DNA from: Thraustochytrium sp. TN22 | Taxonomy: Eukaryota; Sar; Bigyra; Thraustochytrida; Thraustochytriidae | Assembly: GCA_013306675.1 (NCBI GenBank) | Contig: JABLUY010000047.1 | Coordinates: 108,404-172,403 of the forward strand | Direction of reading: 5' to 3' | Length of the DNA stretch: 64,000 nucleotides | Shown here: positions 8,074 to 55,307 of the stretch, piece after piece | How positions within the stretch are numbered: the stretch's first letter is position 1 | Layout of the letters: each line of letters begins with the position of its first letter | Translations under genes and position numbers: made by a program | Notes under the pieces: generated by a model | The model's input: the letters and a program-made list of their open reading frames with translations, nothing else | What the model was told of the DNA's origin: nothing | The model's database searches: none

Positions 8074-8085
8074 TCAGTGAACGGT
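8036..8085. repeat. 17 bp direct repeat over the stop codon of the giant glycosyltransferase gene
   Basis: The 17-mer GCAGCTCAGTGAACGGT occurs at 8036-8052 and again at 8069-8085, 33 bp apart. The second copy contains the TGA stop (8074-8076, minus strand); the first carries the same triplet downstream. It reads as a small local duplication of the gene end. Confidence 0.85.
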
Positions 8086-8679
8086 GGAACCTTCAAAGGC
8101 CTCGTCATTGTCGTCGAAGTCTTCGTCGTCGCGGTTGGCCACAACGGAGCGACGGCCAAAGGCCTCAATGTCGTCATCGTCATCATCGAGCGCGTAGGGC
8201 GAGAGCTGGACGGCCTTCTTGCCGCTGTAGATGCCGCGCTCGAGGTCGTCTGAGGCGTCGTCGTCGTCCTCGGAGTTTTTGCGCGGTCGGAGGGTCATGT
8301 GCCTGGAGGAGCCGCCGTTGTGGCTGGAGAGCGTGTCTGGCTCGGGCTGGCGCACGGAGGGCCGAAACAGAGAGAGGATGCCGGAGCTCATGCGCGAGGA
8401 GACGCGGCGGGCCGAGCCGCTCTCGAGCGCGAGCAGCTTGGCGGCGCGCTCCACGGGGGTTGCGGCCTCGAGGTCGGCGGTCTCGGCCTCGTCATCGTCA
8501 CTGTCGTCGTCGATCTCCTCCAGGTCGTGAGGGTGCTTCTTCTTGGGCGCCGCGCTGCTCCCGCGCGTGGCGCCCACCACGGCGAGCATGGAGGAGACCG
8601 GGCGGCGCAGCGAGATGCGCGCGGACTGGCCTCGGCGCAGGGCGGCCCAGGAGCCGGCAGCGCTGGCACGCCGCACTCT

Positions 8680-8712
<33 letters not shown>

Positions 8713-11700
8713 GCCCTCGGTGTGCATGTCTGGGTGGTGCGAGCCCAGGCGCACGTTGCGCAGGTACGACATGTTAAGCGCCATGGAGCTGCGCTGCATG
8801 ACGGCCGGCACGAGGTCGTCGAGAGGGTTACCTTCGTCGACGTTGGTGTCCGTCTCGCCATCGGAATCGTCGTCGTAGTCGGTGTAGTCGTCGTCGTAGT
8901 TGCCACCATTGAGCGTTGTGCGGGCGGTGCGGGCAGTGAGGCGCGAGGAGGACTGGCCCGCAACACTCTTGGGGGCTGCGGTCTTGCGCGCCTTGCGGCC
9001 GGCCTTGGTTTGGCGCCGAGGGCGCCGCGTTACCGTGGCAGCCTCGGCTGGGCCTGCCCGGGCGACCTGCACATTGATGGGGCTGAAGATCTTCACGCTG
9101 TAGGGCGGCGGGTTGAGCTTGAGGCCGGCCGGGTCATCGGGTGCCGTGGCGTACTGCAGCATGACCTCGTGATGGCGGTCATAGGTGGCGGACTCCTGGT
9201 GGCCGCGCATGGCGAGCGCGAAGTTGTCCTCGCCGATGAGCTTGCGCTTCTGCTGCGCCTTCTGGCTGAGGACGAGGTCGTTGAGCTTGCGGTCGTCGTC
9301 CTCGACGATGTAGCCGCAGAGCGTAAGGATTTGTGCGTCGCCAAGGCTGACCGGGTCGCGAGGCGGCGCGCGCGAGCGCGCGTCGGGGACGACCTGGCGC
9401 GAGCCGCCGACGTCGGTGCAGACGACTGGCATGTGTGCCATCTCGGCCTCGAGAATGGCCATGGGCAGGCCCTCGCTAAAGGAGGAGTTGATGAAGAGGT
9501 CGCCCTTGGCCAGCACGCGGAACTTGGCACCGAGGCCGTGCAGCATAACGTAGGGCTCGAGGCGCAGCTCGTGGATGGCCTGCTTGCATTCGGCAGTGTA
9601 CTTGGGATCCTTGTCCAGACCGCCGAAGATGTGGAGCCGGTAGACCGTGACGCCGCGCACATGCACGATGTGGTGCGCGGCACGGATGGCGTTGAGGATG
9701 TCCTTGATGCGCAACACGTGGGAGAGCGCGACAACGTGCACATGGTCCGGGTCGTGGACCGGGCCGGACATCGCTTGCAGCTTGGGGTCCTCATAAAAGT
9801 CCGGGATGGGCTCGTGCACGAGCTGGTCGGCGAGCGGCTCCGTGCCGTTGGAGATGGGCTTGATGCGCTTGGCGAAGGGCCCGTGCGAGGGCCGGCCGGC
9901 GATGAGGCAGATCCACGAGCGGTACATGTCGGTGTCGGTGCAGGGGCAGATGAGGTCGGCCGTGTTGTAGACGAGGCGTGCCGTGAGGCGCGTGAGACCG
10001 ATAATGGCGTTGCGCGTGAAAGGGTGCAGCAGGCAGTCCTCTGCGCAGAGCTGGTCGAGGCGCTCGCGCAGCAAGATGCCGTGGTCCCAGACGATGACGC
10101 GCGACTTGAAGCGCTGCTTGTGCACAATGGCCTTCAGCGCGCCGATGCCGTGGTGCGACGAGTGGTAGACGTCGCCGCGCGGGAGTTCACACATGAAGGA
10201 GCGCAGCGTCTGCGAGAAGAAGATGAGCGACTCCTGCAGGCCCGGCAGGGTGGGCGCCCAGAGGCGCTGCACGGACTTGGGCTTCTCCTCAAGGATCATG
10301 AGCCACGTCTGCACCCAGACGCGCCACGTGAGACCGTCGGTCCAGGCGGTGTTCCAGTCGTAGTGCTCGAAGAACTCATAGAGCGCCACGACGAGCTCGG
10401 AGAAGTACTCATTGACCTGCGAGGAGCGGTCGTCCACGCCCTGCAGCTCACAGCAGCCGCGGATGAGCTCGCGCAGCAGCGGGTGGAAGCGCGCGCGCAG
10501 CACCCAGGACGTGGTGCGCTGCTTGCGCAGCGCCAGCTCGTAGTACGGCCGGTTGGAGTGGATGGAGGACTCGGGCGAGCTGGTGACGTCGTGCAGCGGG
10601 ATGGGGTGGATAGCGCTCACGCAGCGTGTGGGCGCCGCGATGCGCGGCGTCGAGTTGGAGGCCACCTCGGCCAGGACGTGCAGGTTGAAATCTTCGTTGA
10701 CGCCCTCGTGGTTGATGAGCTGCATGAGGCAGGTGGTGACGCCGCCCGAGACGTAAAAGAGCGTGGCCGAGGCGTCGACGACAACGTCCACCTTGTCGGC
10801 CCGCGCCGGGTGGATGGTCAGGTGCGAGGCGCCGGCGCCGCCCATGATGAGAAGGTCCTGCGCGTAGTGCGCCAGCGTGGTCTTCTCGAGCGTCTTGGTG
10901 GGCGGCTGCAGCTCGGACTCCACGAGGCGCTGCGTGGCGCGCGAGAACTTGAGGAAGCCGATCTTGCCGCGGCACATGCGGTAGCGCTCGGTCCAGTACG
11001 GCTTGAGTGCTGCGACGCGCATAAGGATCATCTCGTCCAGCACGGAGGCCAGCATGCCGGGAACCATGGTCTGGCCCTGGTCGTTGAGCTCATGCACCTC
11101 GAAGAGCGTCGCGCGCGCCTCCTTCCGGAGCGCGAGCAGCGCCTCGCGGCCCTCCTCCAGCTTCAGCTTGGGATGCGCCGCCTTGAGACGGCCACCCGCG
11201 GTGCGGCCCCTGCACTGCAGGTAGAGCGGCGAGCAGGACCAGGCCAAGGTGCGGATGTTGCGCTCGAAGAGCGGGCGCGCCACGTAGCCGTGTACGAGGA
11301 GCAGCAGGTTGTACGAGCTGAAGATGGACGGGTTGATGTCGACGTGCTTAATGTACGCGCAGACCTCGCGGTGCACCTGCATGTCGCCGCGCAAGCCAAT
11401 GTACCAGAGGCGCATCGAGGCGGACGTGAGCACGTGCATCCAGCGAAAGAGCGAGAAGCATTGGCCGCGCACCATGGAGCGCACAATGGCGAAGAGACCG
11501 CGCTTGCGGCGCAGGACCGACTCGCAGTAATCGCCGATCTCGAGCGCGAGTTCCTTCTGCACGGCGCACGCCTCGACCCAGGATCCCTTGTCGAAGCGCC
11601 AGCCCACGGGCAGGCGCTTCGCGTTGGCGTTGCGGCGCTCCACCTCGGCGTCGGTCTGCTCCAGAAGGTGATGCAGGCGGTCCGTGCGTGCGCCAGAGGC

Positions 11701-14700
11701 CATACGCTCGAGCTGCCAGCGCGTCGTCCGCGGCAGAAAGCCATCCTGGCGCGCCTCGAGCATGGCGAGCTCCGCGACGCACGCCAGCGCGTGGCTGCGC
11801 GTTGTGTCTTCGACGTACTCGTGCAGGATGCACTCGGCGATGCGGCCGATGGCATCGTCGACGTGGGCGTCGTCCTCCGGAATGGGGCGGTCGTAGCGGC
11901 GGCGCAGCACGGCCGGGTCCACGCCCACGTAGATGCTGAGGCGGTTGTGCTGGTCCACGCCGGCTCCCATGGCGGCGTTGGCGGCGCGCATGCCCTTGGC
12001 TTGCACGCCGGGCATCTCGCTCGTGGTGCCAGAGGCAGCCATGCCGGTGGCGAGACGGCTGCGCATGCCGAGCGCCACGAAGCCTTCGCGGTAAAGCACG
12101 TTGGCATCGCACAGGTAGACCTGCGTGTTCCCGTTGCGGCACTCTTGCATGAGCGTGTCAAGAAGAGTGAAGATGATGCCCTGCAGCACGCTGTGCTCGC
12201 CGGGCGCGCCGTCTTGGAAGCGGTTTGCGGAGGAGCGGGGCAGCTCGCCGACGACGGAAGCGGCCGTGGCGGGGTTCTGGTCCGGGACAATGGAGCAGAG
12301 CGCGCTGCGCGCATAGAGGTGGCGCTTCCTGTCGATAAAGTCGAGCACTTGGTCGCCCAGGCCGTTCGTTTGGAACGGCAGCGGCACGGCGTTGATGGTG
12401 CCCTTGCGCAGCTTGTCGGCGAGCTGCTGCTCGCGCACCTCAGGCTTGACCTGTGTGAGGCCGCCGCCGTCGAGGATCTTCTTGCCGCTGGTCATGGGAA
12501 TGTCATTCGGATCGATGGTGTTGTGCCAGGTGTTGCGCGGCTCCAGCACGAGATGGCGCACGGTGTGCGCGTAGACCAGGGTGGCCGTGACAAAGCCGAG
12601 GAGCGCGCCAAGCGCCAGCGGCGACAGGTAGAGGTAGACGAGACCGGAGAGAAAGGCGACGAAGCAGGTGACGCGGAACTCCACGAGCTCCTCCCACTCG
12701 ACCATGGACTCCATGCGCACGAGGCGCATGAGCGGGTAGAAGCCGTAGACCACCAGGTTGGCGAGCAGCGTGGCGGCGATGGCCGAAATGAGGACGCCAG
12801 CGGAGGACCCGGGCGTGGCGCGCGCAAAAAAGGACTGATTAATGCGCAGAATGGCGGCCTCGCCGGCCCAGAAGCTGAGAACGGCCGTCGACACGGTGAG
12901 CACGAGCTGCACAAAGGTGGCGCGCGATATGTCGAGGACGAGGTTGGTGATGAGGCGGGGCGCCGTGAGGTCAAAGGTGGCGTACGAGAGCGCCAGGTAG
13001 CGCAGCATGCGAATGCCGACGCAGGTGATGACGACGATGGGCGCAACGGCGAGGATGGAGTACATGCTGACGACGGCGAAGAGCGCAAAGACGAGCGCGC
13101 CCACGGCAATGCCCACGACGACCGCCACGTGCGCGCGGTCCGCGTAGCCGCTGAGGAACATGCGCGAGATCATGGCGTGCAGCACGAGGTTGTAGCCTGT
13201 AGAAAAGGGCAGGACCACGAAGAGCGCCGCCGGCTCGATCAAGTAGACGCAGACCGTGGCGAGCAGGTACCAGCGCAGCGCGGTGAGCTGAAAGCTGCAG
13301 ATGATCCCGCCGTAGGCCTCGAGGCGCGCGGCGTGCACCTTGTCTTCGACGTTGCGCACGATGCGGCGCGAGGCAGGGATGAGCAACTCGTGGTTCTCGC
13401 GCTGCTTCGCGTCGGCGATCTGGCCCACGAAGAGCTCGATGGTGCCGGCGGAGAGCAGAAAGGCCACCATGGCGTACATCACGCCGCGCGCCACGACACT
13501 CGAGGTGCCCTTGGCGAAGAACATGGGCACGGCCGAGAAGGCCAGAATGACAAAGTACATGACGCCGTGCACGATCTCGTTGATGTTGGCGTCAAAGAGC
13601 TCGCCGGAGCGGCGCTCCGGCGTGCCGATGGTCGACTTGCGCAGCTCCTCCATGGCCATGCCAAAGTACTCCCAGAAGCCGCTCGTGGCCGTCTCTGCGT
13701 ACGGCTTCCACTGGTCCAGATCCGGGTTCTTGCGGTTCACGATCCAGAGTGCCTCCTCGCGGTCCGCGCGGCTGCGCATGCGCAGCTTCGCCTCGGTGTC
13801 GCCGCCCTTCATCTCGTCCGCGAGCCGCAGCAGGCCGGGCAGCCAGAGCTGCCAGCGCTTGGACAGCATGCGCACGCGGACGATGACCACCAGGACGGCG
13901 GTGCTCAGGGTCGCGGCGTGCAGGCCGACCCAGAAATCCTCCGAAGCCCACAGGCCGGCCGCGTTGTCTTGCACCCAGGCCTCAAAGGCCTCCGCGCGCA
14001 TCGCCTGTTGCAGCATGAACGGGACGAGCATGACGCAGAGCACGAGGAGCAGCCAGGAGAGCCCGCGGCCACCGGGCAGCTGCACGTGCGGGTCCGGCAC
14101 GCGGAAGAGGTAGAGCATGGTGGTGACGAGCATGAAGAGCCCGAAAAAGAGCGCCACGAGGGCCACGAGAAAGGCGCGCAGCACATTCCAGTGCGAGAGG
14201 ACAAGCGCGATGATGAAGGCCACGAGGCCGCCGGCAAGCGCGCAAACCACGCCGCCCGTGAAGTCACGGCTCAACACCGTAGGGACGCTGGCCAGAACAA
14301 GCTGGTACAGATATGGCGAGGCGTTGCGGCTCATGGACATCATGAACGGCAAGACCGAGACGAGGCCAGCCGCGAGCGCGATGGTGACCAGATTCTTGGT
14401 CCCCTGACCCATGGTGCTGCTTGTGAAGACGCCCGAGCCCGTGAAGCCCTCGAGCAGGAGCTCTGCCATGACGACCACCACAAAGAAGTAGCCGTCGCGC
14501 ACGAGCGAAGTCCTGCTCCACGCGGGCTGGTCCCAGCTCATGCCCTTGGCGCCGCCGGGCCTCAACTTCTGCAGAAGGAAGCGGTGCGTTTGGCGCGCAA
14601 TCTCGTAGAGCGAGATGCCGTAGCACTCCTCGAAGTCCTCAAGGTGGCACACCGTGGTTTCCAGCCAGACTGCCACGGCCATCGGGTCCTCGGGCAGAAA

Positions 14701-15459
14701 GGTCTTGAACTTGACCATGGCGGCCTCACGGATCTCTCGCCGCGCCTTGCGCTGCATGTCTGGCGTACGATTGGTCGTGCGCTGGCGCAAAAGGTTGGTG
14801 TACTTCATACTGACCTGGCCCTCGTCGCCGGCGTCAGCAGCGCCAGCCTCGAGGTCGGCTGGGCCGTCGGACTCGGCCTCCTCATCGCCGGCGTCGGCGC
14901 TCTTGTGCTCGCGCCGCCGCTGCTGCTTCTCCTGCTCTGCTGACTCCTGCTCTTCCTCGTCGGCCAAGATTTGGCGCTGCGCCCGGGCTTGCCTCCGTGT
15001 CTCGCGGTAGCGCCGCAGCTGGTCCAAGCCGAGGTACGTCAGCACCCAAAAAGCGGCAAAGAGGAGCAGGCCCATGAGCGAGAAGAGCACCTCGCGGAGC
15101 TCGCTCTCCGGCAGCGGCGCATAGTCGAGCGTGGTGACCAGGCGGCCGTCCACGGTCACGTCCACCGTGGCCAGCGGCGCCGCCGGCGTGGCGTCCACGC
15201 GGAAGCCAAGGTCCGCCTCGGACCAGGTCGCGTTCCAGGTGCCGGTGGACCCGTCCTCCAGCACGGCCGTGGCGACCACGGCAGCGTCGCGGCACGCCAC
15301 GGCATTCAGCCCGTCCAGCCGCAGCACGGGCACCACGATGCTCAGCACGTCGCGTTTGAACGCGGGCGCATACTTGCCGTTCAGGCTCCACTCGAAGCTG
15401 GTGGGCGCGAGCTGGCTCGCCTCCACCCACGCGAACGCCGCGTCGCTGCACGCCGCCAT
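8074..15459 (-). CDS. Giant multi-pass membrane protein with PelF-like GT4 glycosyltransferase domain
   Basis: A 2,461-residue protein, ATG at 15457-15459. Residues 1-120 look like a soluble or lumenal domain, followed by a first membrane helix (about 130-150). About 15-18 more hydrophobic helices lie between roughly 310 and 1000. A long soluble region leads to a glycosyltransferase block at about 1600-2050. Here 'VIVWDHGILLRERLDQL' (near 1785) recalls the 'TEHGIYTRER' segment of PelF-type enzymes. It is followed by 'ISNGTEP', a GT-B linker region (near 1908), and 'FINSSFSEGLPMAILEAEMA' (near 1990), the GT4 nucleotide-sugar E-x7-E region. Residues after about 2150 are disordered and rich in Asp, Ser and Arg. 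In bacteria PelF makes the Pel exopolysaccharide with membrane partners; here enzyme and membrane part are one chain. Cell-wall or extracellular polysaccharide synthesis is inferred. No intron is needed. Confidence 0.75.
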
Positions 15460-19863: not shown

Positions 19864-21121
19864 CTACGGATGATAAAAGGGCGGCCGCGGCACAGACCCA
19901 GGCTGCGTGTGCGTGGCGGAGGAAGAGGAGGCGGTGGCGGAGGCGTTGCCGTCCTGCGAAGCGAGCTGCTGCCGCAAGGTAGCGAGCTGCTGGGGGGTGA
20001 ACTGCGCTAGCGCCTGGTGCGGAAAAGGCAAGGCGAGGGCCGGCAAGGGCGCCTGGGCGGGGCCACCTCCTCGAACGGCAGCGGCGGCCTGGGCGGCGTG
20101 CACGGCCTGGAAGGGCGACAGCGCGGGCGAGCCTGTGGAGCTCGCCGTGGAGCGCGCGGTGAGCGAGGCGAGGACCGGGGAGAGAGCCGCCGCGTCAAGG
20201 CGCAGCGGCGCCTTGGACTCGACCGAGGCTGCCTCGTCGCGCGCGAGCGCAGGCGTCAGCGACGGGGAGAGGCCGCCGGCGTGCACGAGCGCCCTGTGCT
20301 CGTCGCAAAGCGCTGCGGCGCCGACGCCGACGCCCCGCACGTTCCGCTCGCAGCCTGGCGAGGCGCATTGCGCTTGATTGCGGTGCTGCGTACAGAAGTC
20401 TGATTTGCTGATGGCAATCTCCTCGCACTCGCTGACAGCGCACTTCTTGCCGCCGCCGTGGCGGCGGCAGAGGCCGCGGCCGAGCGCGGCGCTGGCACAC
20501 CCCGGCTCGGCGCAGCGCTTGCCGCCGCCGTGGGCGGCGCACTTGCTGGAGCCGCCGCGCGCAGCCTTGGGGCAGTTGGGCATGTCGCAGCGCGAGCCGC
20601 CGCCGTGATTCTTGCAGAATTCGGTCGTGCCCTGGGCGAGCTTGTCGCAACCCTCGGCGTCGCAGCAGCGTGCGAAGCGCTTGCCGTCCCAGCGCTTGAC
20701 CTTGCCCTTGACCATGTAGTTCTGACCCTTTACGCGCTGGTGCTGACTGGGCGCCTCCAGCACAGGGCCCATATTGGCCGCTTGCGCGGAGCTGCTCTCC
20801 GAGGACGCGACGCGCTCGCTCTTGGCCGGCTCGGGCGCCTTACGCTTGCCGAGCTCAAAGTTCTCGCCGAGCCCGGATAGGGCCTCCTCGGCCGTGGGCC
20901 GCGGAACTTGCACCGCGGGGGACGGCTGCGGTGCGCCCAGGCCGGCGGAGAGCTGCGCCAGTGCTCGCTGCTGCACGCCTCTCAGAGGCAGCTGTTCTTC
21001 GGGCGGGTGCGCGTGCTGCGCAGGTTGTTGATGCTGGTGCTGGGGGAAGGCATACTGAGGCGACGAGAGGGAGCTCAACAGCATGTTGGCGCCAACGTTG
21101 CCGGCGTCGCCGCCACGGGTA

Positions 21122-21171
<50 letters not shown>

Positions 21172-21789
21172 ACTAGTAATACTACTCACAGGGGCACCTC
21201 TAAAGGTACCACTCAGACTCGCGAGGTCGCTCGTCCGCAGATGTGCCTGGAGTGCGAGGTTGATTGGGTATCGCGGGGGAGGAGCTTGCTGGTGCTGGTG
21301 CTGGTGCTGGTGCTGGTGGTGGTGGTCCAAGTGCTGTTGGTGCTGCATCGCGAGGACTTGCTGGGTGTTGGTGCGATCATATTCATACTCGGGATAGCCG
21401 ACCAGATGCTGGAAGTGCTGCTGATGCTGATACTGCTGAGAGGGCAGCGGCGGCATGGACGACGGCAGCGGTGGTGGTGGCGGTGGCGGCGGCGGCGGCG
21501 GCGGTGGCGGCTGCGAGGAAAAGAGTGTCGCGAAGGATGACTGCGTTGTTGGCATGGACAATGATTGTGAGGAGCTTGAGTGAGCAAATGGCATGGGGGG
21601 TGTCCCAGAAGAAGAAGACGCCATGTTGGCGTTAAGGATCTCGACAAGTGCCGCGTGCATGTCGGGCGTCAGTTGTGGCTGCTGCTGCTGCTGTTGTGGC
21701 TTGCGTTCTGTATGCTCGGCTTGCTGTTGACTGCGCATGGCAGCCGGCGCCAGCCGTTCCCAGACTGGGCGTTCCACGACGAGGCTCAT
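19864..21789 (-). CDS. Zinc-knuckle repeat protein of the 'WRKY19-like' type with long Gln/Ser/Pro-rich N-terminus
   Basis: A 641-residue protein, ATG at 21787-21789. The first ~330 residues are low complexity: poly-Gln, poly-Pro, His/Gln runs and a stretch of about 19 Ser. The middle (about 358-500) holds four to five repeats of the form C-x4-C...C-x2-H-G-G-G-x-+-C, for example 'RCDMPNCPKAARGGSSKCAAH' spaced to the next 'HGGGKRC'. Preceding it is 'YMVKGKVKRWDGKRFARCC', which looks like a basic contact segment. Proteins with these repeats are often annotated 'probable WRKY transcription factor 19' in oomycetes, although no WRKY motif is present here. The C-terminal ~140 residues are Ala/Pro/Gln-rich with 'FTPQQLATLRQQLAS' near 605. 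A nuclear regulatory role is likely by analogy but unproven. Confidence 0.72.
21123..21170. repeat. (TGC)16 trinucleotide repeat encoding poly-Ser
   Basis: Sixteen TGC units inside the zinc-knuckle gene. On the minus strand they read AGC (Ser), part of a run of about 19 Ser. Confidence 0.95.
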
Positions 21790-36213: not shown

Positions 36214-37039
36214 CGGCACGAGTGGAAGTTCTCGCTCTGCGCGGCCGGGGCGCTCAGCTCCGCTCCTCACTGTCAGCTCGCGCGCAAGCCGCCGCACTGC
36301 AGCACAACCGAGGCCGAGCCCTGACGTGGCCTGCGCCGGAGTGGTGGTGGGTCGAAGACGAAAAGAACGAAGAAGACTGGCAGGAGAGAGCCCGAGTCGG
36401 CCCGGGGCCGCACGAATGCACCCTGTGTCTTGGCCTGGCAAGCTTGTGCTTCTCATGCGTGCTCATGCGTTGCGACGGAATTGTTCTCGGCTGCAACTTG
36501 AACTTGGTCAGACAGGCCAAGGCGAACTTGGAGCCAAGTTGCAGGCGTGTACTCACGTGGCCGTCCGAGTCGTGCAGTGAGAGGGCTTCCCGGCGCAGCA
36601 CAACACGCTTCCTCCGCGCTTCGCGCGCTTCGTAGGCACGCGGGTTCCAGCTTTAGCTAACACCAAGTACCAAGCTAACGTTTGGCGAAGAGCAAGCCAG
36701 CGAGCCAAGCCAGCGAGCTCTGGCTCGCCCGGTTCCTGTCCGCTCGCCGCGCCCTACCTTCCTTAGCTGCCCTTTCGGCCGCAAATTTACCTCGCCGAGG
36801 CTCGCCGAGGTGCTCGCCGAGGTGCTCGCCGCCGCGCTGGCGCGCTCGCGAGGCGAGGCGAGGCGAGGCGACGCGAGGCCCCGGCCGGCGGCGCGCCCCG
36901 CGGCGGCGCCAGCTCGCGGCGGCGGCGACCCGCCTGCTCGCGAGGCGCGGGCGCCAAGGCTTGGCGAGCACGAGCGAGCGAGCGCGTGCACGCAGCGCAC
37001 GTGCCACGCGCGCGCGCTCGGGCGGCAGACACGCAACGC

Positions 37040-37082
<43 letters not shown>

Positions 37083-37173
37083 GGGGGGCGGCGCGCGGCG
37101 GCGGAGCGCGGCGGAGCGGCGGCCAGCGGCGGCGAGCGGCGCGGCGCGGCGGCGCGGACGCGCACTTGGCAGG
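36214..37173. other. Divergent intergenic region between ABCG and SIR2-TPR genes
   Basis: It contains a GAGGC run (36848-36870) and a GGC run (37039-37082) close to the SIR2-TPR start. The frame of the SIR2-TPR gene is open back to a TTG at 36682, but its content is repeat-like Arg/Ala/Gly. The first half is less GC-rich. No separate gene seen. Confidence 0.55.
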
Positions 37174-39540
37174 ATGCTGGAGGACGGCAAGGGCAGCGCG
37201 GCGTCGTCGAGCGCGGCGTCGGTGGCGAGCGCGTCGTGCGCGGCGTGCGTGGGCGGCTTGGCAGAGGCGGCGCTGGGGTGCCTGCGCGGAGGGCGCGACG
37301 GCGCGGTGGAGCAGGCCAGCGTGGGCAGCGCCGTGCTGCAGTCGGCGCGAGACCTGCTGCTGGCGGAGGGCGATGCGGATGCGGCTGCGCAGCTGGAGGC
37401 CGTGCGCGGGGACCGCGTGGCCTTCTTCGTGGGCGCAGGCGCGTCGATCGACTCGGGACTGCCGAACTTCCGGCAGTTTTCGGGACACATGCTGCGCGAG
37501 TCGCTGTCCAAGGACCTGGTTTCAGAGCGCGACATCGACGTGCTGGTGAGCGAGCTGCGCCCCGAGGTGCTGCTGCAGACGATGCACGAGGGCTTCGGGG
37601 ACGGGATCTTTGAGTTTTACAACTGGTTTGACGACGCGCAGCCGTCGACGAACCACTACGGGCTGGCTCGCGCGATCCGCGCGGGCGACCTGGTGCTCAC
37701 CACCAACGTGGACACGCTCATCGAGGAGGCGTACGAGGAGCTCTATGGCACGCGCGACTTTGAACTCGTGGTGTCGGAGGCTGAGTTTAAGTCCTTCTCC
37801 CCCCGGCGGAGGCAGTTCTTCGGCCCGCGCCGGGGCGCCCTACTCAAGTTCCACGGCACGGTCGACAAAGAGGCCACGGGCGGCGCGCGCTATGAGACGG
37901 TACGCTTCCTGCTGAACCAGGTGGGCGAGGGCGTGACGCCGTCCATGCATGGCGTGCTGAGCAAGATCGTGCAGGACTTTGACATGATCTACCTGGGCTA
38001 CTCGGGTTGCGACAACTTCTCCGTGCAGCCCGTCATGTGCAGCACGCGCACGTCGCGGCACACACTCTGGTTCTGGTACGAGGGCAACGAGCGCATGGAG
38101 CTGGACTCGGGCCGCGACACTTTCGAGCAAGAGCTGCGTGGCGTCGGTCAGCAGGTTGCGGCAGGCTCCTCCTTCGCCGATATTCCGCGAGGCCTGGAGA
38201 TCCTCTCCACCTGTGAAATCCTCGTGGAGCGCCAGAACGCCTTTCGCCTGCGCGGCAACCCGTCACTCGTCATGCACGATGCGCTCGACGGCGAGACGCG
38301 CGTCAACGAGGCGCTTGCGCGCGGGCCCGTGCCGGCGTGGACCTCGAGCGTGAAGCGCGAGGACGCGCTCATGTGCGCGGCCGGCCTCTTCTCCACTGCC
38401 TCGGACATTGACCGCGCCATCCGCCTGCTCGAAGAGGCGCTGCACATCGTGGAGCGCTCCGGCGACTCGAAAAAGCACCCGCGCGTATTGCACAAGCTCG
38501 GCAATCTAGCCATGCTCTCCAGTACCAGCGCAGGCAATGAGGAGGCCGTGGCCAAACTCGAGGGCGCCATCGAGCTCTACGCCGCGTCCGGCGACCTGGC
38601 AGCCAAGCTCGACACCCAGCTCGACCTTGCCAACGTCTTGCGCCGCATGCGTGACTTTGATCAGGCGCTTGCGGTTTTGGACGACGTCGTTGTCCCCGAT
38701 GACGGCTCCCTCTCGCCGGTCCTCACCAACAAGACCGAGGCGCGCAAGGCCATGACGCGCGGCCTCATTTACGGCCTCGGCCGCGTAGGCGGCCAGCCGC
38801 CCTCGCAGGAGACCACTGACACGGCTCTCGCCGAGCTGGCGCGCGCCTCTTCGCTCGCTAAGGAGTCCGGCCTCGTGTCCCTGCACGCCAACGTGCTCAA
38901 TGCCAGCGGCCTCGTCAAGTACCAGCTCGCAGGTGACTCGCGCGAGCTCCTGTTCAGCGCCGCCACCGATCTCAGCGAGGCCTTTCGCCTCAACCAGCTC
39001 ATCGGCAACGCGCGCGCCTGCTTCCAGCAGCTGCGCAATCTTGGTTTGGTTCACGTCAAGCTCGGCCGCCTCGATCACTCCACGGCGCAGCTCGACCAGG
39101 CCATCCAGGACTTTCGTAACGCCGAGCGCTTCCTGTTTCGCCTCTCGCGCAGCCGCATCGTCGGCGAGCTGCTGGAGGTGCGCTTCCGTCTCGGCGAGGC
39201 CCTGGTTGCTGCGCTCCGCTACCGCGAGGCCGAACCCGTCCTGCTCGACGTCCAGGCGAGCCGCGTCGAGCTCGGCGACTGGCACAATGAGGCCCGCACG
39301 CTCGAGCTCCTCCTCAAGGCTGCGTCCACGGACGACGACCGTGTCGCGCACGCGCGCCGCGTGCAGGAGATCTACGTCGATGTTCTCGCCGACGCCACCA
39401 AGAGCGCGCGCTTCACCAAGCAGCCCATTGTAGCCACCAACGCGCGTTCCATCCTCACCACCGCGAGCCGCCAGATCGCGGAGATTGACGAGGACCTCGC
39501 CGCTGACCTCAACGCATTGCGCGATCAGGTGCCTTCCTAA
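37174..39540 (+). CDS. SIR2-like NAD-binding domain fused to TPR-like helical repeats
   Basis: 788 residues from the ATG at 37174. The SIR2 fold covers about residues 75-330. It has VGAGAS (86-91) followed by 'IDSGLPNFRQF' (the GAGxS..SGxPxFR loop that binds NAD), 'LTTNVDTLIEEA' (175-186) with the key Asn178, and 'KFHGTVD' with the probable catalytic His227. The four-Cys zinc ribbon of classical sirtuins is missing, as in the SIR2_2-type domains of bacterial NADases. From about residue 375 the chain is helical with TPR-like repeats ('AIRLLEEALHIVERSGDSKK', 'AVAKLEGAIELYAASGDLAA'). SIR2 plus TPR layouts are known among bacterial antiphage proteins where SIR2 degrades NAD. Whether this one is an NADase or a deacylase cannot be read from sequence. 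Codon use matches its neighbours, so any transfer is not recent. Confidence 0.8.
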   Translation: MLEDGKGSAASSSAASVASASCAACVGGLAEAALGCLRGGRDGAVEQASVGSAVLQSARDLLLAEGDADAAAQLEAVRGDRVAFFVGAGASIDSGLPNFRQFSGHMLRESLSKDLVSERDIDVLVSELRPEVLLQTMHEGFGDGIFEFYNWFDDAQPSTNHYGLARAIRAGDLVLTTNVDTLIEEAYEELYGTRDFELVVSEAEFKSFSPRRRQFFGPRRGALLKFHGTVDKEATGGARYETVRFLLNQVGEGVTPSMHGVLSKIVQDFDMIYLGYSGCDNFSVQPVMCSTRTSRHTLWFWYEGNERMELDSGRDTFEQELRGVGQQVAAGSSFADIPRGLEILSTCEILVERQNAFRLRGNPSLVMHDALDGETRVNEALARGPVPAWTSSVKREDALMCAAGLFSTASDIDRAIRLLEEALHIVERSGDSKKHPRVLHKLGNLAMLSSTSAGNEEAVAKLEGAIELYAASGDLAAKLDTQLDLANVLRRMRDFDQALAVLDDVVVPDDGSLSPVLTNKTEARKAMTRGLIYGLGRVGGQPPSQETTDTALAELARASSLAKESGLVSLHANVLNASGLVKYQLAGDSRELLFSAATDLSEAFRLNQLIGNARACFQQLRNLGLVHVKLGRLDHSTAQLDQAIQDFRNAERFLFRLSRSRIVGELLEVRFRLGEALVAALRYREAEPVLLDVQASRVELGDWHNEARTLELLLKAASTDDDRVAHARRVQEIYVDVLADATKSARFTKQPIVATNARSILTTASRQIAEIDEDLAADLNALRDQVPS

Positions 39541-46377: not shown

Positions 46378-48153
46378 TCAGAGAGCAGCAGCGGTGGCGT
46401 CGGCGGAAGCGTCGGCAGAAAGGTACTTGTCGACGGCCTCGGCAGCGCCACGGCCCTCGTTGATGGCCCAAACGACGAGGGACTGGCCGCGGCGGCAGTC
46501 GCCAGCGGCGAAGAGGCCCGGCACGGAGGTGTTGTAGTCGCCGTAGGCGGCCTTGACGTTGCCGCGCTCGTCGGCGTCGAGCGCGAAGGCGTTGATGAGG
46601 TTCTCCTCGGGGCTGAGGAAGCCCATGGCGCAGAGCACGAGGTCGGCCGGGATGGTCTGCTCGGAGTTGGGGACCTCGACGAAGGCGCCGTCCTTGAACT
46701 CGACGGACGAGATGACGACGCCCTTGACGTTGCCCTTGCCGTCGTCAAGCAGGCGCTTGGTCTGCACGGAGTAGTGGCGCGGGTCGGAGCCGAAGACGGA
46801 CTGGCTCTCCTCGTGGCCGTAGTCGAGCTTGTAGACCTTGGGGAAGAGCGGCCAGGGGTTGGCGTGCGCGTCGCGCTTGGGCGGGCTCTTGGCGAGGAGC
46901 TCGAGGTTGATGACGCTCTTGCAGTACTGACGGAGCGAGGTGCCGATGCAGTCCGTGCCGGTGTCACCGCCGCCAATCACGACGACGTTCTTGCCCTCGG
47001 CGGAGATGAGCTCGTCGGTCCACTGGTTGCGGAAGTTGCCGTCGGCGTCGAGCTTGAGGTCCTTCTGGTTGGCGGTGAGGAAGGTCATGGCCGGGTAGAC
47101 GCCGTTGAGGTCAGCGCCGGGGCAGTTGAGCAGGCGCGGCTTGGTCGCACCGACGGCGAGCACGACGGCGTCGTAGGCGCTGCGGAGCTCGGCGGCGTCC
47201 TTGTTGACGCCGATCTCGGCGTTGCACTCGAAGGTGATGCCCTCGGCGCGCAGAAGGTCGACGCGACGGTCGACCGTGCGCTTGTCGAGCTTGGGGTTGG
47301 GGATACCGTAATAGAGCAGGCCACCGACCTTGTCCTCGCGCTCGAAGACGGTGACGGTGTGGCCGAGCTGGTTGAGCTGGTCGGCGGCGGCGAGGCCGGC
47401 CGGGCCGCTGCCGATGATGGCCACCTTCTTGCCGGAGCGGTCCTCCTCGGGCACCAGCCGGGGCTGGATCCAGCCCTCCTTCCAGGCGCGCTCGACGATG
47501 GCGTACTCCATGTTTTTGATGGTGACCGGGTCGTCGATGAGTCCGGCGACGCAGGCGCCCTCGCAGGGCGCGGGGCAGACGCGGCCGGTGAACTCGGGGA
47601 AGTTGTTGGTCTTGTGCAGGCGGTCGATGGCCTCGAGCCACTGGTCGTTGAGCACGAGGTCGTTCCACTCGGGGATGAGGTTGTTGACGGGGCAGCCCGT
47701 GTGCGTCTGGCAAAAGGGCGTGCCGCAGTCCATGCAGCGCGCGGCCTGGCGCTTCTGCTCCGCCGGGTCGTCGTGGCCGGGCGAGTTGATCTCGGCCCAG
47801 TCCTGGAGCCGCATCTTGGACGGCCGGTACGGCTCAGCCTTGCGCTTGAAGTCCACGAACCCGCGCGGGCTCTTGCCCTGCGGCACGGTCAGCTGCACGG
47901 CGGGCGCGGCGGCGCCCGAGGCGGCCGCCGTCTTCTTGTCGCCGCCCTCTGCCGCGCCCAGGGCGCGCACCGAGCGCTCCAGCTGGTCCACCTTAAGCAT
48001 GAGCTGCGTCAGCATGTCGTCCAGCCGCCGCTGCTGCGCGTCCGCGTCGCCGCTGCCGCCCGCCGCCGCCGAGAGCTGCCTCGCGCCTGCGCCGGGCGCC
48101 GCGCGCACCAGGGCCGCGCGCCGGGCCGCCGCCGCGGGCAGCCGCCGCATCAT
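46378..48153 (-). CDS. gltD: Glutamate synthase, small (NAD(P)H-oxidising) subunit, mitochondrial
   Basis: 591 residues from the double ATG at 48148-48153. The first ~30 residues ([20 protein letters not shown]) are Arg/Ala-rich without acids, a typical mitochondrial presequence. A short helical spacer follows, then the GltD core from about residue 95. It has iron-sulphur cysteines C140, C143, C148, C154 ([15 protein letters not shown]) and C193, C197, C201 (CPAPCEGAC), FAD motif GSGPAG (248-253) and NAD(P)H motif GGGDTG (394-399). It ends with '[20 protein letters not shown]'. It takes electrons from NAD(P)H and passes them to the large subunit, which turns glutamine and 2-oxoglutarate into two glutamates. 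The frame opens further to 48747 through GC-rich leader sequence, which is not counted. The large-subunit gene is divergent, 3.5 kb away. Confidence 0.95.
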
Positions 48154-48154
48154 C

Positions 48155-48228
48155 GCTCGCCTCGCCTCGCCTCGCCTGCGCTCTGCGCCTCGGCCGTGCG
48201 CGCTCGCTCGCTCGCTCGCTCGCTCGCT
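48155..48228. repeat. GCCTC and CTCG runs immediately upstream of the small-subunit ATG
   Basis: Four CGCCT-type pentanucleotides abut the start codon (48155-48178). About seven CTCG units follow (48201-48228). Both lie in the probable 5' leader. Confidence 0.85.
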
Positions 48229-48244
48229 GCCGCGCGCTCGCCGC

Positions 48245-48281
<37 letters not shown>

Positions 48282-50755
48282 TCCTCTCCGCCGCCGCCCT
48301 CGCCGCGCGCTTCCCGTCTGCCGCCGCAGCTGCGCAGCCGGAGCCTGCCTGCACCGCGCCAGTCTTTTCCAACGTGCACACTGCCGTCGACTCTGCGCGC
48401 CGCCGCCGCGTTAGCTGGTTTGCGCGCTGCAGTGCACTGGCAGCGGCGGTGGCGGATGGATGCCGCTGCAATCGCTGTCGCCGCGCACTGCAGCCCTTGC
48501 TCGCAGCCGCCTCCGCGCACGCTGCCTGCCGCCCGCGCGGGCCCGCGCGGCGCTCTGGGAACCTGCCGGAGGCGAGGCGAGGCGAGGCGAGGCGAGCCGA
48601 GCCTCGCCGGCGGGCTGGTGCTTGCTGCCAGGTAGTAGCAGCTGACGGCGACGCCTCGCCTCCAAGTCGCCTCGCTCGCCTCGCCGTCACGACGCCGCTG
48701 TGCACAAGCGCGAGCGCGACGCTGGCGGCCCGGCGGCGAGGCGCCACTGGCAGCTCGGCCAGCCTCGGCCTGCCACTGACTGACAGCGAGGCGGATGACG
48801 CCGCCAGCGCTTTGATCCACCGCTGCCTGCAGTGGTAACTAGTGTCAGCCAGCTAGGCTAGTGTCAGCCAGCCTGAGCTCGCACGCCGACTCACTCGCCT
48901 TGCTGCCAGTTGTGCCCGCACTCGCCGCCACTGCACCGGGAGCGCGTGGCTGCTCGGACCGCGCACGCGCCGCTCCGAGTCCTTGCCGGTGCCTGGCCTC
49001 AGGCCGGCCTGCCGGCCTGCCCGCGGGCCCCGCGGGGGCTGGCTGGCCGGGCGCCCTCAGGCCGGCGCGAGCTGGCCGCCGCCGCCGCGCGCCGCGCCGC
49101 GACCTCGCCCCGCCGCCGCCGTCCGAGCCCCCTGGCGGGCTCGCTCGCCGCGGCGCTGCCTGCCCTTGCCTGCCTTTGCAGCGCAGCTCTTTCTATCGGC
49201 TGGGACCGCGGCGGCGCGTCCCACTGGGCCGCGGCAGCGCGCCCGCCCCCCGCGGCGGCGTACATTGGCCCGAGTGGGCCGCCCCTCACGGCACTCTGCG
49301 GAGCACAGAGGGGGGGGCGCGCGCAGGTCCCGGCCGGCCCGACAACCCGCCGAGGGGGGACGCGGGCGCGGGGTCCCGGCGCGGCGACATTTCCTCGGCG
49401 GGCGCCTTACGCGGGGCAGCGGCGCGCGCTGGCGGCGCGGGCGCGCGCGCGTGCGTAAGGCGGCGGGCGCGCGACCACCCATCGGTCGCTGACCGCCTGC
49501 AGGAAGCAGGAGGGCGGCCCTCACTGGGCCCGCAGTGGCGCTGGTCAGGTGGCAGTGGGCCAGTGGCGCGGCGGCAGGGCAGTGCCGGTCACGGTGTGTG
49601 TGTGAGAGTGCGCCTTCCCGCGCCGTTCTAGCTCTAGCTAGCCGAGGCAGCGATGATCACGAGCCACCGGCACTGCCAGGCGAGGCGCCCGGCGGCGCGG
49701 GGAGCCGCGGCGCGGCGGCGCGGCAGCGGCCACGGCGGGCGACCTGCGCACGACCTCGAGGCTTGGCCGAGGCGCAACGTGACAGGCACTGGCACTGGCG
49801 CTGACCATGACTGGCACTCCAGGAGAGAGTGGGCGATGATGACGAGCTGGGGAGGACCAAAAAGCGGCAGGCGCGACTTGAAGTGGAGCAAGGGCTGGAA
49901 CAAAGGCGGGGTTGGTTGTCACCGTGACGGTGCGGCGCTGGCAGCTGCAGCGAGCTAGCTGGCAGCAAAGCGAGCTTCCAGGGCGGCGGCGCTGCCGGAA
50001 CGCGGCGCGATGGGTGGCTGCGCAGCGCGCTCGTGGCGCGCGAGCATGTTTTCCTGCCGGTGCCAGTGGTGCCAGCACCTGCGTGCTCGTTACGCTGCTG
50101 TCTGCCCCTGCCTGCCTGCCAGCAGCCATCGTGCCATCTGCCTGCACTGCACCGCTCTGGCGCTCCAGCTAGCCATTGATCCCCGCACGCGCCCTACCAG
50201 GCAGCGAGCGGGGGCTTGCTTGCATTGCTTGCTTGCTTGCTTGCCAGGCTCTGCGCAGGTGCGCGGCGCTCGCGGCGCCGCGCCGCGCCTGCGCCGGCGC
50301 GGCAAGCTTCTCGCCCTCGCAAGTTGTCTTCTCGTTCGTTCGAAAGTTGCAGCCGGCTGGCTCAAGCTGGCTGGCCGGCCAGGAAAGGTGCTTTCAAGCG
50401 CCAACGTGAAGGCGAGCTCAAGCCCGCTCAAGCCCGCCAGCGACCTGTCGCTGGCTGGTTCGCGGGCGCTTGCCTGCCTGAGACGCTCGCGGCGCGCCGC
50501 CGGCGCCTCGAGGTGGCCAGCGGCTGGCCACGGCAGCCGGCCGGCTGGCTGGCTTCGCGGTGAGGCCGGCGGGCGCCGTGGCCACCGGCACCGCCCCGTC
50601 GTGGAAGGCCGGCGGGCCCGCGCCGCGCTGCGCCGCGTCGACTTGGAGGCGGCACACAGCGGCACACGGCACGGGGCAGCTGGCAGGCAAGAGCTGCCAC
50701 TGGCGCTGCTCGTCACCCGCCTCACTGCACCGCTCCGCGCGGCGCTGCACCGCTC

Positions 50756-51663: not shown

Positions 51664-54600
51664 ATGCTGGGCCAGTGGCGGCGCGCGGGCGCAGGCGCCT
51701 CGCGGCGGCCGCTGAGGTCGGCGCTGGTGGTGGTGGTGGAGGCGCGCAGCGCGAGCAGCACCACGAATGGCGTGAAGCGCGGCAGCTTCCGGCAGGTGCC
51801 CAAGCACAAGATGGGCCTGTATGACCCGGCGCTGGAGCGCGACTCGTGCGGCGTGGGCATGGTGGCCAACCTCAAGGGCCGCGTGAGCCACCGCATCGTG
51901 GCGGACGCGAACGAGATGCTGGCGCGCATGGCGCACCGCGGAGGCTGCGGCTGCGAGGCCAACACGGGCGACGGCGCGGGCATCCTGGTGGGCATGCCGG
52001 ACGGCTTCATGCGCAAGATCGCCAAGAAGGACCTGGGCATCGAGCTGCCGGCCAAGGGCGAGTTCGCGAGCGGCATGGTCTTCACCTCCGTGCAGGAGGA
52101 CGTGGCCGAGGCCTCGAAGCGGCTGCTCGAGCAAAACGCCGAGCGCTTCGGCCTCCAGGTGCTCGGCTGGCGCGACGTGCCCACCAACAACTCCATGCTC
52201 GGCATGGGCGCCAAGCTGTCGGAGCCCAGCATCTCGCAGGTCTTCGTGGCCAACAAGGCGGGCCACCCCATCGACGTCTTTGAGCGCGAGCTCATGCGCA
52301 TGCGCAAGGCCACCGAGGCCGCCATCACCGAGGCGGACCTCGAGGACTTTTACGTCTGCAGCCTCAGCGCGCGCACCATCACGTACAAGGGCCAGCTCAC
52401 CCCGGAGCAGCTGCCCCAGTACTACCTGGACCTCGTCAACACCGACTTTGAGTCGCACCTGGCGCTCGTGCACTCGCGCTTCTCCACCAACACCTTCCCG
52501 AGCTGGGACCGCGCGCAGCCCAACCGCGTGCTCTGCCACAACGGCGAGATCAACACGCTGCGCGGCAACAAGAACTGGATGCACGCGCGCAGCGGCGTCA
52601 TGCGCTCGCCGCTCCTGGCTGACAACGACCAGCACGGCCTGCTGCCCATTTGCTCCGACAACATGACCGACTCGGGCAACGTCGACGCCGTGCTCGAGCT
52701 CCTCGTCAAGGGCTCCGAGCGCTCCATCGCCGAGGCCATGATGATGATGATCCCCGAGGCCCACCAGAACGACGTCCACATCTCCGCTGACAAGAAGGCC
52801 TTTTACGACTACAACAGCCTCATCATGGAGCCCTGGGACGGCCCGGCCATGATGGCCTTTACCGACGGCCGCTTCGTCGGAGCCTGCCTCGACCGCAACG
52901 GCCTGCGGCCCAGCCGCTTCTACGTCACCGAGGACGACCACGTCATCCTCTCCTCGGAGGTCGGCGTGCTGCCCTCGCTCGACCCGGCCACCATCAAGCA
53001 CAAGGGCCGCCTCGAGCCCGGCAAGCTCTTCCTCGTCGACTTTGAGACCGAGCGCATCGTGCACGACGAGGAGCTCAAGCACTCCATCGCCGGCGCGCGC
53101 GACTACGCCGGCTGGCTCGAGCGCAACCTGTCCACCCTCCCGGACTGGGCCGCTTCCTCGTCTGCTGCCTCCGCCCCCTCCGCGGCCACCAAGCCGAACG
53201 AGGTCGAGCTGCGCGGCCGCCTCAACGCCTTCGGCTACACCACCGAGACCCTCGACCTCCTGCTCGCGCCCATGGCCGTCGGCGGCAAGGAGGCGCTTGG
53301 CAGCATGGGCGTCGACGCCCCGCTCGCCGTGCTCTCGCGCCTGCCCAAGGGCCCGGCCGAGTACTTTAAGCAGCTCTTCGCGCAGGTCACCAACCCGCCC
53401 ATCGACCCCATCCGCGAGGAGATCGTCATGAGCCTGCAGTGCCCCGTCGGCCCCGAGGCCAACCTGCTCGAGGTCAGCGAGGCCCACGCCGCGCGCCTCA
53501 TGATCAAGGACCCCATCCTCACCGAGGCCGAGATGGCCGCCGTCCTGGCCGCCGACTCCCCGGACAAGGCCTACAAGGGCCGCTGGTACTCCAAGCCCAT
53601 CGACATGTCCTTCCCGCGCCCCGCGCCCGGCCAGAGCCCCGGCGACGCCCTGCGCGCCGCCATCGAGAGCATCTGCTTCCAGGCCGAGGACGCCGTCAAG
53701 TCCGGCAAGGTGCCTGTCCTCGTGCTCACTCACGACAACGTCGGCCCCGACCGCATGCCCATCCCCTCGCTCATGGCCATCGGCGCCGTCCACCACCACC
53801 TCATCGGCCTCAAGGAGCGCACCAACTGCGCGCTCTTCCTCAAGGCCGGCGACGCGCGCGAGGTCCACGACATGGCCTGCCTCTTCGGCTTTGGCGCCGA
53901 CGCCGTCTGCCCGTCCACCGCCTACGACGCCATCCGCGACCTCAACGAGACCGGCCGCCTCTACGCCATGAACTACCGCAAGGCCATCTCTGACGAGGAC
54001 GCCATCGCCAAGTACCGCAAGGCGCTCGGCAAGGGCCTGCTCAAGGTCATGAGCAAGATGGGCATCTCCACGCTCCAGTCCTACAAGGGCGCCCAGATCT
54101 TCGAGGCCGTCGGCCTCGACTCCGAGGTCGTCGACATGTGCTTCCGCGGCACCACCACCCGCATCGAGGGCTCCGGCTTTGAGGCGCTCGCCCTGGACGT
54201 CCTCGCCAACCACCACCGCGCCTACCCGCACAACGCCAAGGAGCGCGGCGGCTCCGCCGGCGCCCGCGCGCACATCCCGCTGCTTGCCAACCCGGGCGAC
54301 TACCACTACCGCCACGACGGCGAGGCGCACCACAACACGCCCGCCGCCATGGCCGAGATGCAGTACGCCGTCCGCGAGCACGACCCGGCCGCCTGGAAGC
54401 GCTACATTGAGCACACCATGGAGGCCAACCGCAAGGTCTCGCTCCGCGGCCTGCTCGACTTCAACGTCGACCCGGCCCAGTCCATCCCCATTGACGAGGT
54501 CGAGCCGGCCGCCGAGATCATGAAGCGCTTCGCCACGGGCGCCATGAGCCTTGGCTCCATCTCCTCCGAGTCCCACGAGACCCTCGCCGTCGCCATGAAC

Positions 54601-55271
54601 CGTATCGGCGGCCGCTCCAACACCGGCGAGGGTGGCGAGGACCCGCGCCGCTTCACGCCCCTCCCGAACGGCGACACCAAGCGCAGCGCCATCAAGCAGG
54701 TCGCCTCCGGCCGCTTCGGCGTCACCGCCGAGTACCTGGCCAACTCGGACCAGGTCCAGATCAAGATGGCCCAGGGCGCCAAGCCCGGTGAGGGCGGCGA
54801 GCTCCCCGGCTTCAAGGTCTCCGAGGAGATCGCCAAGACGCGCGGCACCACCCCGGGCGTCGGCCTCATCTCCCCCCCGCCCCACCACGACATCTACTCC
54901 ATCGAGGATCTCGCCCAGCTCATCCACGACCTCAAGAACGCCAACCCCTACGGCGAGGTCTCCGTCAAGCTCGTCTCCGAGGTCGGCGTCGGCATCGTCG
55001 CCGCCGGTACCGCCAAGGCCAAGGCTGACCACATTGTCGTCTCGGGCGGCGACGGTGGCACCGGCGCCGCCGCCTGGACCGGCATCCACCGCGCCGGCCT
55101 CCCGTGGGAGCTCGGCGTGGCCGAGGCCCAGCAGACTCTGGTCGTCAACGACCTGCGCTCCCGCGTGCGCCTTCAGGCCGACGGCCAGATGAAGACCGGC
55201 CGCGACGTCGTCATCGCCACCCTCCTCGGCGCCGAGGAGTGTGGCTTCAGTACCGCCCCGCTCATCGCCCT

Positions 55272-55307
<36 letters not shown>

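Follow-up and report, generated by a model that had tools for sequence, protein, structure and literature searches.

The closest described counterparts of the protein reported here are fungal synthases of galactosaminogalactan (GAG), which are outlined below as far as the retrieved excerpts of the cited papers describe them. In Aspergillus fumigatus, Gtb3 (Gt4c), the putative transmembrane glycosyltransferase encoded in a cluster of five genes, has been proposed both to polymerise and to extrude GAG (PMC4817252, PMC7229062, PMC7329490); the same cluster encodes an epimerase, a deacetylase, and two hydrolases (PMC4817252), and deletion of gt4C depletes the polymer (PMC8566572). The medium of a Neurospora NCU05132 mutant contained 0.1% galactosamine (GalN) and 0.1% N-acetylgalactosamine (GalNAc), compared with 2.6% and 2.3% in the wild type, and neither sugar occurred in the ethanol-precipitated soluble fraction of wild type or mutant (PMC11356417). 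VdGtb of Verticillium dahliae spans 2,856 amino acids with 11 predicted helices, and its knock-out is devoid of GAG (PMC13245733). GAG and the bacterial polysaccharide Pel are chemically alike (PMC9135694). In this study, we analyzed a 64,000-nucleotide stretch of the genome of the stramenopile Thraustochytrium sp. TN22 (assembly GCA_013306675.1, contig JABLUY010000047.1, positions 108,404 to 172,403; hereafter the window), in which a single frame encodes a 2,461-residue protein that joins a predicted many-helix membrane part to a glycosyltransferase (GT) domain resembling that of the bacterial biofilm enzyme PelF.

Results

A divergent PelF-type glycosyltransferase domain

Judged from its sequence, the GT domain is of the PelF type, albeit divergent, and its assignment to PelF is right at the level of type. 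A sequence-only reading had picked out three motifs as closer to PelF than to ordinary GT4 enzymes, and we located all of them in the frame, namely WDHGILLRERL at residues 1791-1801, ISNGTEP at 1869-1875, and SSFSEGLPMAILEAEMA at 1992-2008. Both halves expected of a DUF3492/PelF-type GT4 enzyme scored above their Pfam cut-offs (DUF3492, 51.6 bits against 23.3; Glyco_trans_1_4, 54.8 bits against 27), with GGV (1572-1574) and DHG..RE (1792-1799) lying inside the DUF3492 segment. Glycos_transf_1 also matched residues 1913-2027 (E 7.6e-10), and Peptidase_S51 gave a sub-threshold match in the protein (E 0.2). Among the 14 NCBIfam models reported, PelF (NF038011) ranked first with 68.7 bits, followed by a model with 44 bits, and its best stretch covered model positions 305-423 of 489. 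A search of plasmids with a 517-residue query found its best match in a Deinococcus PelF (25.7% identity over 87% of the query, E 6e-20); 33 plasmid records matched the GT domain, and the 20 listed comprised 17 annotated as pelF, one as a group 1 glycosyltransferase, one without annotation, and one without a feature. The best sequence match in the PDB was a TagF-like capsule polymerase (E 0.0054, 66 residues of the GT4 core). In viral contigs, single-sequence patterns revealed no relative of the GT domain, and none of the 28 pattern matches obtained with the PelF alignment was confirmed.

A scan of bacterial and archaeal genomes yielded at least 549 confirmed relatives from at least 594 pattern matches, and 80 genome loci were retained. 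Of these, 62 were used for PelF extraction and, together with five plasmid loci, provided 67 PelF-like frames (66 bacterial and one from an archaeal metagenome-assembled genome); the 18 excluded loci, 13 of them from Streptomyces, were picked by hand without a redundancy test. The pelF annotation is carried by the five plasmid frames, the other 62 being named PelF-like from their match. Against the profile built from the 67 frames, the window domain scored 222 bits and 11 other GT4 frames of the same genome 4.5-74 bits, while the lowest of the 67, all of which had trained the profile, scored 462 bits. Twelve other GT4 frames were found in the genome, and the weakest was left out of this comparison. 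Membership of an ordinary eukaryotic GT4 family, which the sequence-only reading had named as one outcome that would overturn it, was rejected on these scores. One of the other GT4 frames has an N-terminal half whose motif suggests a YdjC/ChbG-type sugar deacetylase.

In the alignment, 50 columns are conserved in 85% or more of the 67 frames and 18 are invariant; the window protein retained 29 of the former and 14 of the latter. The residues kept were GGV 1572-1574, H1766, H1793, G1794, E1799, N1871-G1872, K1919-D1920, G1946, Y1954, S1993, E1996, P1999, E2004, and G2018, of which H1793, G1794, E1799, G1872, K1919, E1996, and E2004 are among the columns identical in 67/67. Of the GT4 catalytic core, the E-x7-E pair E1996/E2004 and K1919 are retained, and the conserved arginine of the same loop is replaced by H1914.

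Phylogenetic analysis placed the window domain on the PelF side of the split from the GT4 frames of its own genome, both in a first tree of 79 rows (SH-like approximate likelihood ratio test, 87) and in a second tree of 57 rows (support 91/86), from which another 14 PelF-like rows had been removed as near-duplicates, along with 8 of the 11 outgroup rows for their long branches, and of which the first part of the drawing was read. The profile scores favor the same side, but the suggested grouping with bacterial PelF is tentative: the row forms a long branch, with 2.5-2.7 changes per column, and neither tree places it in a supported subgroup. We take the domain as a probably old or fast-evolving PelF-type lineage that was not acquired lately from any of the bacteria sampled. 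The trees gave no support for a recent transfer from one particular bacterium, with no supported group holding the row and a top identity of 27-28%, a test limited by the long branches.

One chain with a predicted 15-16 membrane helices

The GT domain follows a membrane part in the same chain (Table 1). Two crude predictors place 15-16 helices in the protein, in keeping with the approximately 16 or more noted at the outset. At a Kyte-Doolittle threshold of 1.4 or more, 16 segments were detected, including residues 37-57, which probably form no helix; an approximate insertion-energy scale with a self-chosen cut-off gave 16 segments within residues 124-964. A charged 97-residue loop (532-628) parts the six-helix from the nine-helix group. 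Prokaryotic PelF-like frames, in contrast, are stand-alone, as the sequence-only reading had stated for bacterial PelF; none of the 67 has four or more helices at a Kyte-Doolittle threshold of 1.8, a level reached by 13 of the 16 segments of the window protein. The acidic tail noted earlier was recovered as well.

Table 1. Coordinates of the candidate synthase frame and its segments in the window
Feature	Position	Strand	Residues	Remarks
Candidate single-chain polysaccharide synthase/exporter open reading frame	8074..15459	-		2,461 aa, complete
N-terminal segment	15091..15459	-	1-123	8 K+R and 17 D+E; no evident signal peptide by eye; membrane side uncertain
Membrane part	12568..15090	-	124-964	Predicted helices: one in 124-143, six in 322-531, nine in 629-964
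Unclassified stretch	10765..12567	-	965-1565	Between membrane part and glycosyltransferase
DUF3492 (PelF-type GT4 N-terminal half)	9937..10764	-	1566-1841	Pfam PF11997, E 1.5e-13; alignments
GT4 C-terminal half	9334..9717	-	1915-2042	Pfam PF13692, E 1.6e-14; NCBIfam PelF; conservation; K1919 and E-x7-E pair E1996/E2004
Acidic low-complexity tail	8077..9249	-	2071-2461	18.7% D+E, 13.6% K+R

Apart from the GT domain, the chain had no match over threshold in the libraries searched. Pfam gave no match above cut-off for residues 1-320 or 2060-2461 and none at E<=10 for residues 300-1060 and 1040-1570. Residues 300-1570 had no match among plasmids at E<=0.01, a single chance-level match in the PDB (E 2.4), and seven pattern matches in viral contigs, none confirmed. 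A tblastn search of 85 prokaryotic loci detected no relative at E<=1 for the N-terminal, membrane, middle, or tail segments.

The frame runs from ATG to TGA through 2,461 codons without interruption, and the nearest upstream in-frame stop starts 399 bases before the ATG. Its third-position GC content is coding-like (0.76-0.95) in all 17 consecutive segments, so that no seam is visible. A 2,214-codon open frame on the opposite strand (8299-14943, +) had no Pfam match and is taken for a shadow frame caused by the high GC content of the coding strand; GC content in the window ranges from 61 to 77% per 2-kb step. In genome-wide searches, which score the best candidates only and whose counts are lower bounds, the protein's own locus was the only full-length match reported, and one further frame matched weakly in the GT4 core (36% over 90 residues). 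Likewise, a DUF3492 search of the 37.9 Mb genome reported the window locus as its only match.

Search for PelG and for a polymer-related gene set

Among the five plasmid loci opened, two had pelF followed by a gene annotated as the "exopolysaccharide Pel transporter" PelG (PF16933). Four membrane regions of the window protein were compared by hhalign with 34 PelGs, drawn from 34 of the 85 prokaryotic loci, and gave probabilities of 0.7, 0.3, 1.1, and 1.2%, with 0.0-0.9% for the controls, for which each region was shuffled five times and reversed once. In two regions the score exceeded that of all six controls, through one match of about 40 residues, and in the other two it did not; three of the four aligned the same 40 or so residues (about 735-778) to PelG columns 139-181. 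Since shuffling destroys helix patterns, these controls are weak, and a single query sequence affords little power. Two Streptomyces loci deserve mention in their own right. In S. himastatinicus (L052, 5148-9062), a PelF-like enzyme and the protein upstream of it form a single frame, through either a fusion or a sequencing slip; that upstream protein shares 60% identity with the product of a separate gene preceding pelF in an S. californicus plasmid (L006). The plasmid locus itself (L006, 5584-12771) is very similar in gene content to the fungal GAG cluster: besides PelF, it encodes a protein of about 470 amino acids that we aligned with PelG, an endo-alpha-1,4-polygalactosaminidase, and a spherulation-specific family 4 protein, and it also contains nucleotide-sugar genes.

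Elsewhere in the thraustochytrid genome, the endo-alpha-1,4-polygalactosaminidase family GH114 is represented by 11 domains in six frames on four contigs, each scoring 58-200 bits. Up to three domains occur per frame, and several frames, inspected by eye, start like secreted proteins and contain linkers rich in threonine and proline as well as a hydrophobic segment close to their end. The genome also contains a GalE frame (403 bits) and two CE4-type deacetylase frames (71.8 and 23.9 bits), the latter on contigs other than the window's.

Neighboring frames and other features

Frames neighboring the synthase candidate are eukaryotic in type according to Pfam, including a kinesin, MORN repeats, and an ABC-2 type transporter. 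A frame at 36682-39537 (+) combines tetratricopeptide (TPR) repeats with a SIR2-like match just below the cut-off (24.0 against 24.5 bits), a pairing that occurs in defence-type proteins. Another, at 19867-21789 (-), contains two WRKY19-type zinc-finger stretches (E 2.5e-17). Glutamate synthase is split over two divergently transcribed frames, a small-subunit-like frame with 4Fe-4S and pyridine nucleotide-disulphide oxidoreductase domains and a large-subunit frame with four domains, the pair occupying 46381-48747 (-) and 51664-56448 (+); eukaryotic NADH glutamate synthases are mostly fused. Outside the window, a PfaA-type polyunsaturated fatty acid synthase reached 2,539.7 bits including its frame neighbors, none of 14 control genomes passed the cut-off, and a second large frame with related domains lies on the other strand, its matches 2.6 kb from the PfaA-type ones. 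Such an opposite-strand pair is typical of thraustochytrids.

Discussion

The combination of a PelF-type GT domain with a predicted 15-16-helix part in one chain suggests a processive polysaccharide synthase of the fungal GAG synthase (Gtb3/Gt4c) kind, of which this protein may be the stramenopile counterpart; by analogy with the described systems, we hold this reading with a confidence just short of even. The cytosolic, retaining GT4 domain would take UDP-sugars, most likely UDP-GalNAc and/or UDP-galactose supplied by a GalE-type epimerase, and processively lengthen a chain, which the membrane part of the same protein, presumably seated in the plasma membrane, would thread across in place of bacterial PelG/PelD/PelE. 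Cleavage or remodelling of the polymer might follow through GH114 enzymes, whose layout resembles that of secreted proteins. The 11 GH114 domains fit a galactosamine-containing product but, given a possible feeding role, count as no more than supporting evidence. The fuller picture, in which a stramenopile makes and remodels its own alpha-1,4-galactosamine-type matrix through a one-protein Pel machine with a channel unrelated to PelG and an expanded GH114 remodelling set, so that a PelF-type enzyme would have been coupled to a different exporter in eukaryotes, seems to us unlikely as a whole.

Several observations weigh against the proposed synthase. If the N-terminus lies outside, a cytosolic enzyme needs an odd number of helices; with helix 1 running from outside to inside and 16 helices in total, the enzyme would end up outside, so that either 15 helices or an inside N-terminus would be required. 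The PelF score stayed below the 100-bit equivalog cut-off of NF038011. Within the GT domain, four residues invariant in 67/67 PelF-like frames are replaced (E by S1564, G by A1565, P by F1568, and W by C1577), an arginine conserved in 64/67 is H1914, and a glycine conserved in 66/67 is R2028; the change of E to D at 1792 is among the other lost conserved columns. PelG was not found in the genome by a search whose positive control was detected, and the hhalign comparison (0.3-1.2%) did not convincingly relate the sequence of the membrane part to PelG. No GH114, GalE, or CE4-deacetylase match lies on the window's contig, and Spherulin4 (GH135), Agd3_CE, and CBM87 had no match in the genome, where equally silent controls mean that their absence is not shown. 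The sugars by which labyrinthulomycete matrices are exemplified in the cited excerpt are glucose, galactose, xylose, fucose, mannose, and rhamnose, not galactosamine (PMC12221091). Moreover, GH114 has been read elsewhere, in the excerpt at hand, as an extracellular digestion enzyme common to osmotrophic eukaryotes (PMC13345962), and the set in this genome may serve for feeding on bacterial or fungal galactosaminans rather than for remodelling an endogenous polymer.

The sugar and the membrane are the points at which a different synthase could be envisaged, one that sits in the Golgi membrane and delivers a polymer, rich in galactose or otherwise composed, to the lumen for wall scales instead of making a cell-surface galactosaminan. 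Nothing in the sequence appears to fix the sugar, and the coverings of labyrinthulomycetes are described, in the part of the source available, as Golgi-derived polysaccharide scales, their matrices holding galactose among other sugars (PMC12221091). On the other hand, the closest characterised systems by type, Pel and fungal GAG, make GalNAc-containing polymers according to the excerpts consulted, and the GH114 set would fit galactosamine unless it serves feeding; a Golgi synthase of this kind is in our view unlikely, yet it carries appreciable weight. Slightly less probable, we consider, is that the protein is no polymerase-exporter at all, the GT4 domain adding single sugars to lipid or protein or being inactive and the membrane part acting as a transporter or receptor of other function. 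The lost PelF-invariant residues point in this direction, as does H1914, which lies in the loop that binds the nucleotide diphosphate in GT4 enzymes, and the sequence of the membrane part is unlike anything known. The GT4 domain nevertheless differs from a decayed one in keeping Lys1919, the E-x7-E pair, and most of its core glycines, and R1917, three residues from the lost arginine, could substitute for it.

A mis-assembly or a missed intron or stop that joined two neighboring genes, one for a membrane protein and one for a PelF-type enzyme, would dissolve the architecture altogether, and the frame is known from one assembly only. With 2,461 codons free of stops, uniform third-position GC over the 17 segments, and a fungal counterpart of like size that is also described, in the excerpts cited above, as one many-helix chain, we regard such a joining as very improbable.

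If the proposed single-chain synthase is correct, Pel/GAG-type polymers would extend past bacteria and fungi to stramenopile protists. This would also help explain how these cells stick to surfaces, and the joint working of a GT4 enzyme and an exporter in one chain could be studied with material from a non-pathogen. The membrane part and the middle stretch of about 600 residues had no library match over threshold, and their structure could show how a PelF-type enzyme is coupled to a channel without PelG. A literature search returned no report linking PelF with thraustochytrids; DUF3492 was mentioned only in a Fusobacterium context in the text portions retrieved, wording on PelF homologs brought up no protist in titles or abstract beginnings, and among the matches listed, galactosaminogalactan never occurred together with a stramenopile term in the portions returned.

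Bacterial PelF (NF038011) and the window protein share the two-part DUF3492 and GT4 enzyme, with 22-28% identity to the five plasmid PelFs, whereas the window protein is devoid of the E-G..P and W of the PelF N-terminal motif. A stand-alone enzyme accompanied by PelG characterises PelF proper; here, a single frame with 15-16 predicted helices occurs in a genome in which no PelG was matched. PelG is assigned its role in Pel export by annotation, and an export role for the window membrane part is our proposal. Fungal alpha-1,3-glucan synthase Ags1 differs from the window protein in glycosyltransferase family and domain order, and its extracellular amylase-like domain is absent from the window protein according to Pfam. 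It is nonetheless a single-chain synthase with a 12-helix part thought, in the excerpt consulted, to export the polymer (PMC7329490). The novelty that the sequence-only reading saw in a eukaryotic one-protein synthase/exporter did not hold, since fungal GAG synthases are described, in the portions of the papers retrieved, as large multi-pass glycosyltransferases with a published model of polymerisation and export (PMC4817252, PMC7329490, PMC7229062, PMC13245733), and the single-chain architecture is therefore not unprecedented. What is new is the probable lineage, together with an enzyme whose N-terminal motif has diverged, membrane and middle parts that fall into no known class, and a gene around which no cluster was detected. 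The fungal GAG synthase gene is clustered, in contrast to the window protein, for which no epimerase, GH114, GH135, or deacetylase match was detected on the window's contig (with silent controls for GH135 and Agd3) and no GAG-cluster partner occurred among 28 window frames scanned with Pfam. Same-chain export is an unproven proposal for the fungal synthases and the window protein alike. Fungal Gtb members presumably carry DUF3492 as well, and their GT4 membership is taken from the name Gt4c. Likened by layout as described in the excerpts rather than by sequence, Gtb3/Gt4c, GtbZ, VdGtb, NCU05132, and the window protein are each a very large multi-helix chain with a glycosyltransferase, and the 2,461 amino acids, 15-16 predicted helices, and GT4 domain found here stand beside the 2,856 amino acids and 11 helices of VdGtb.

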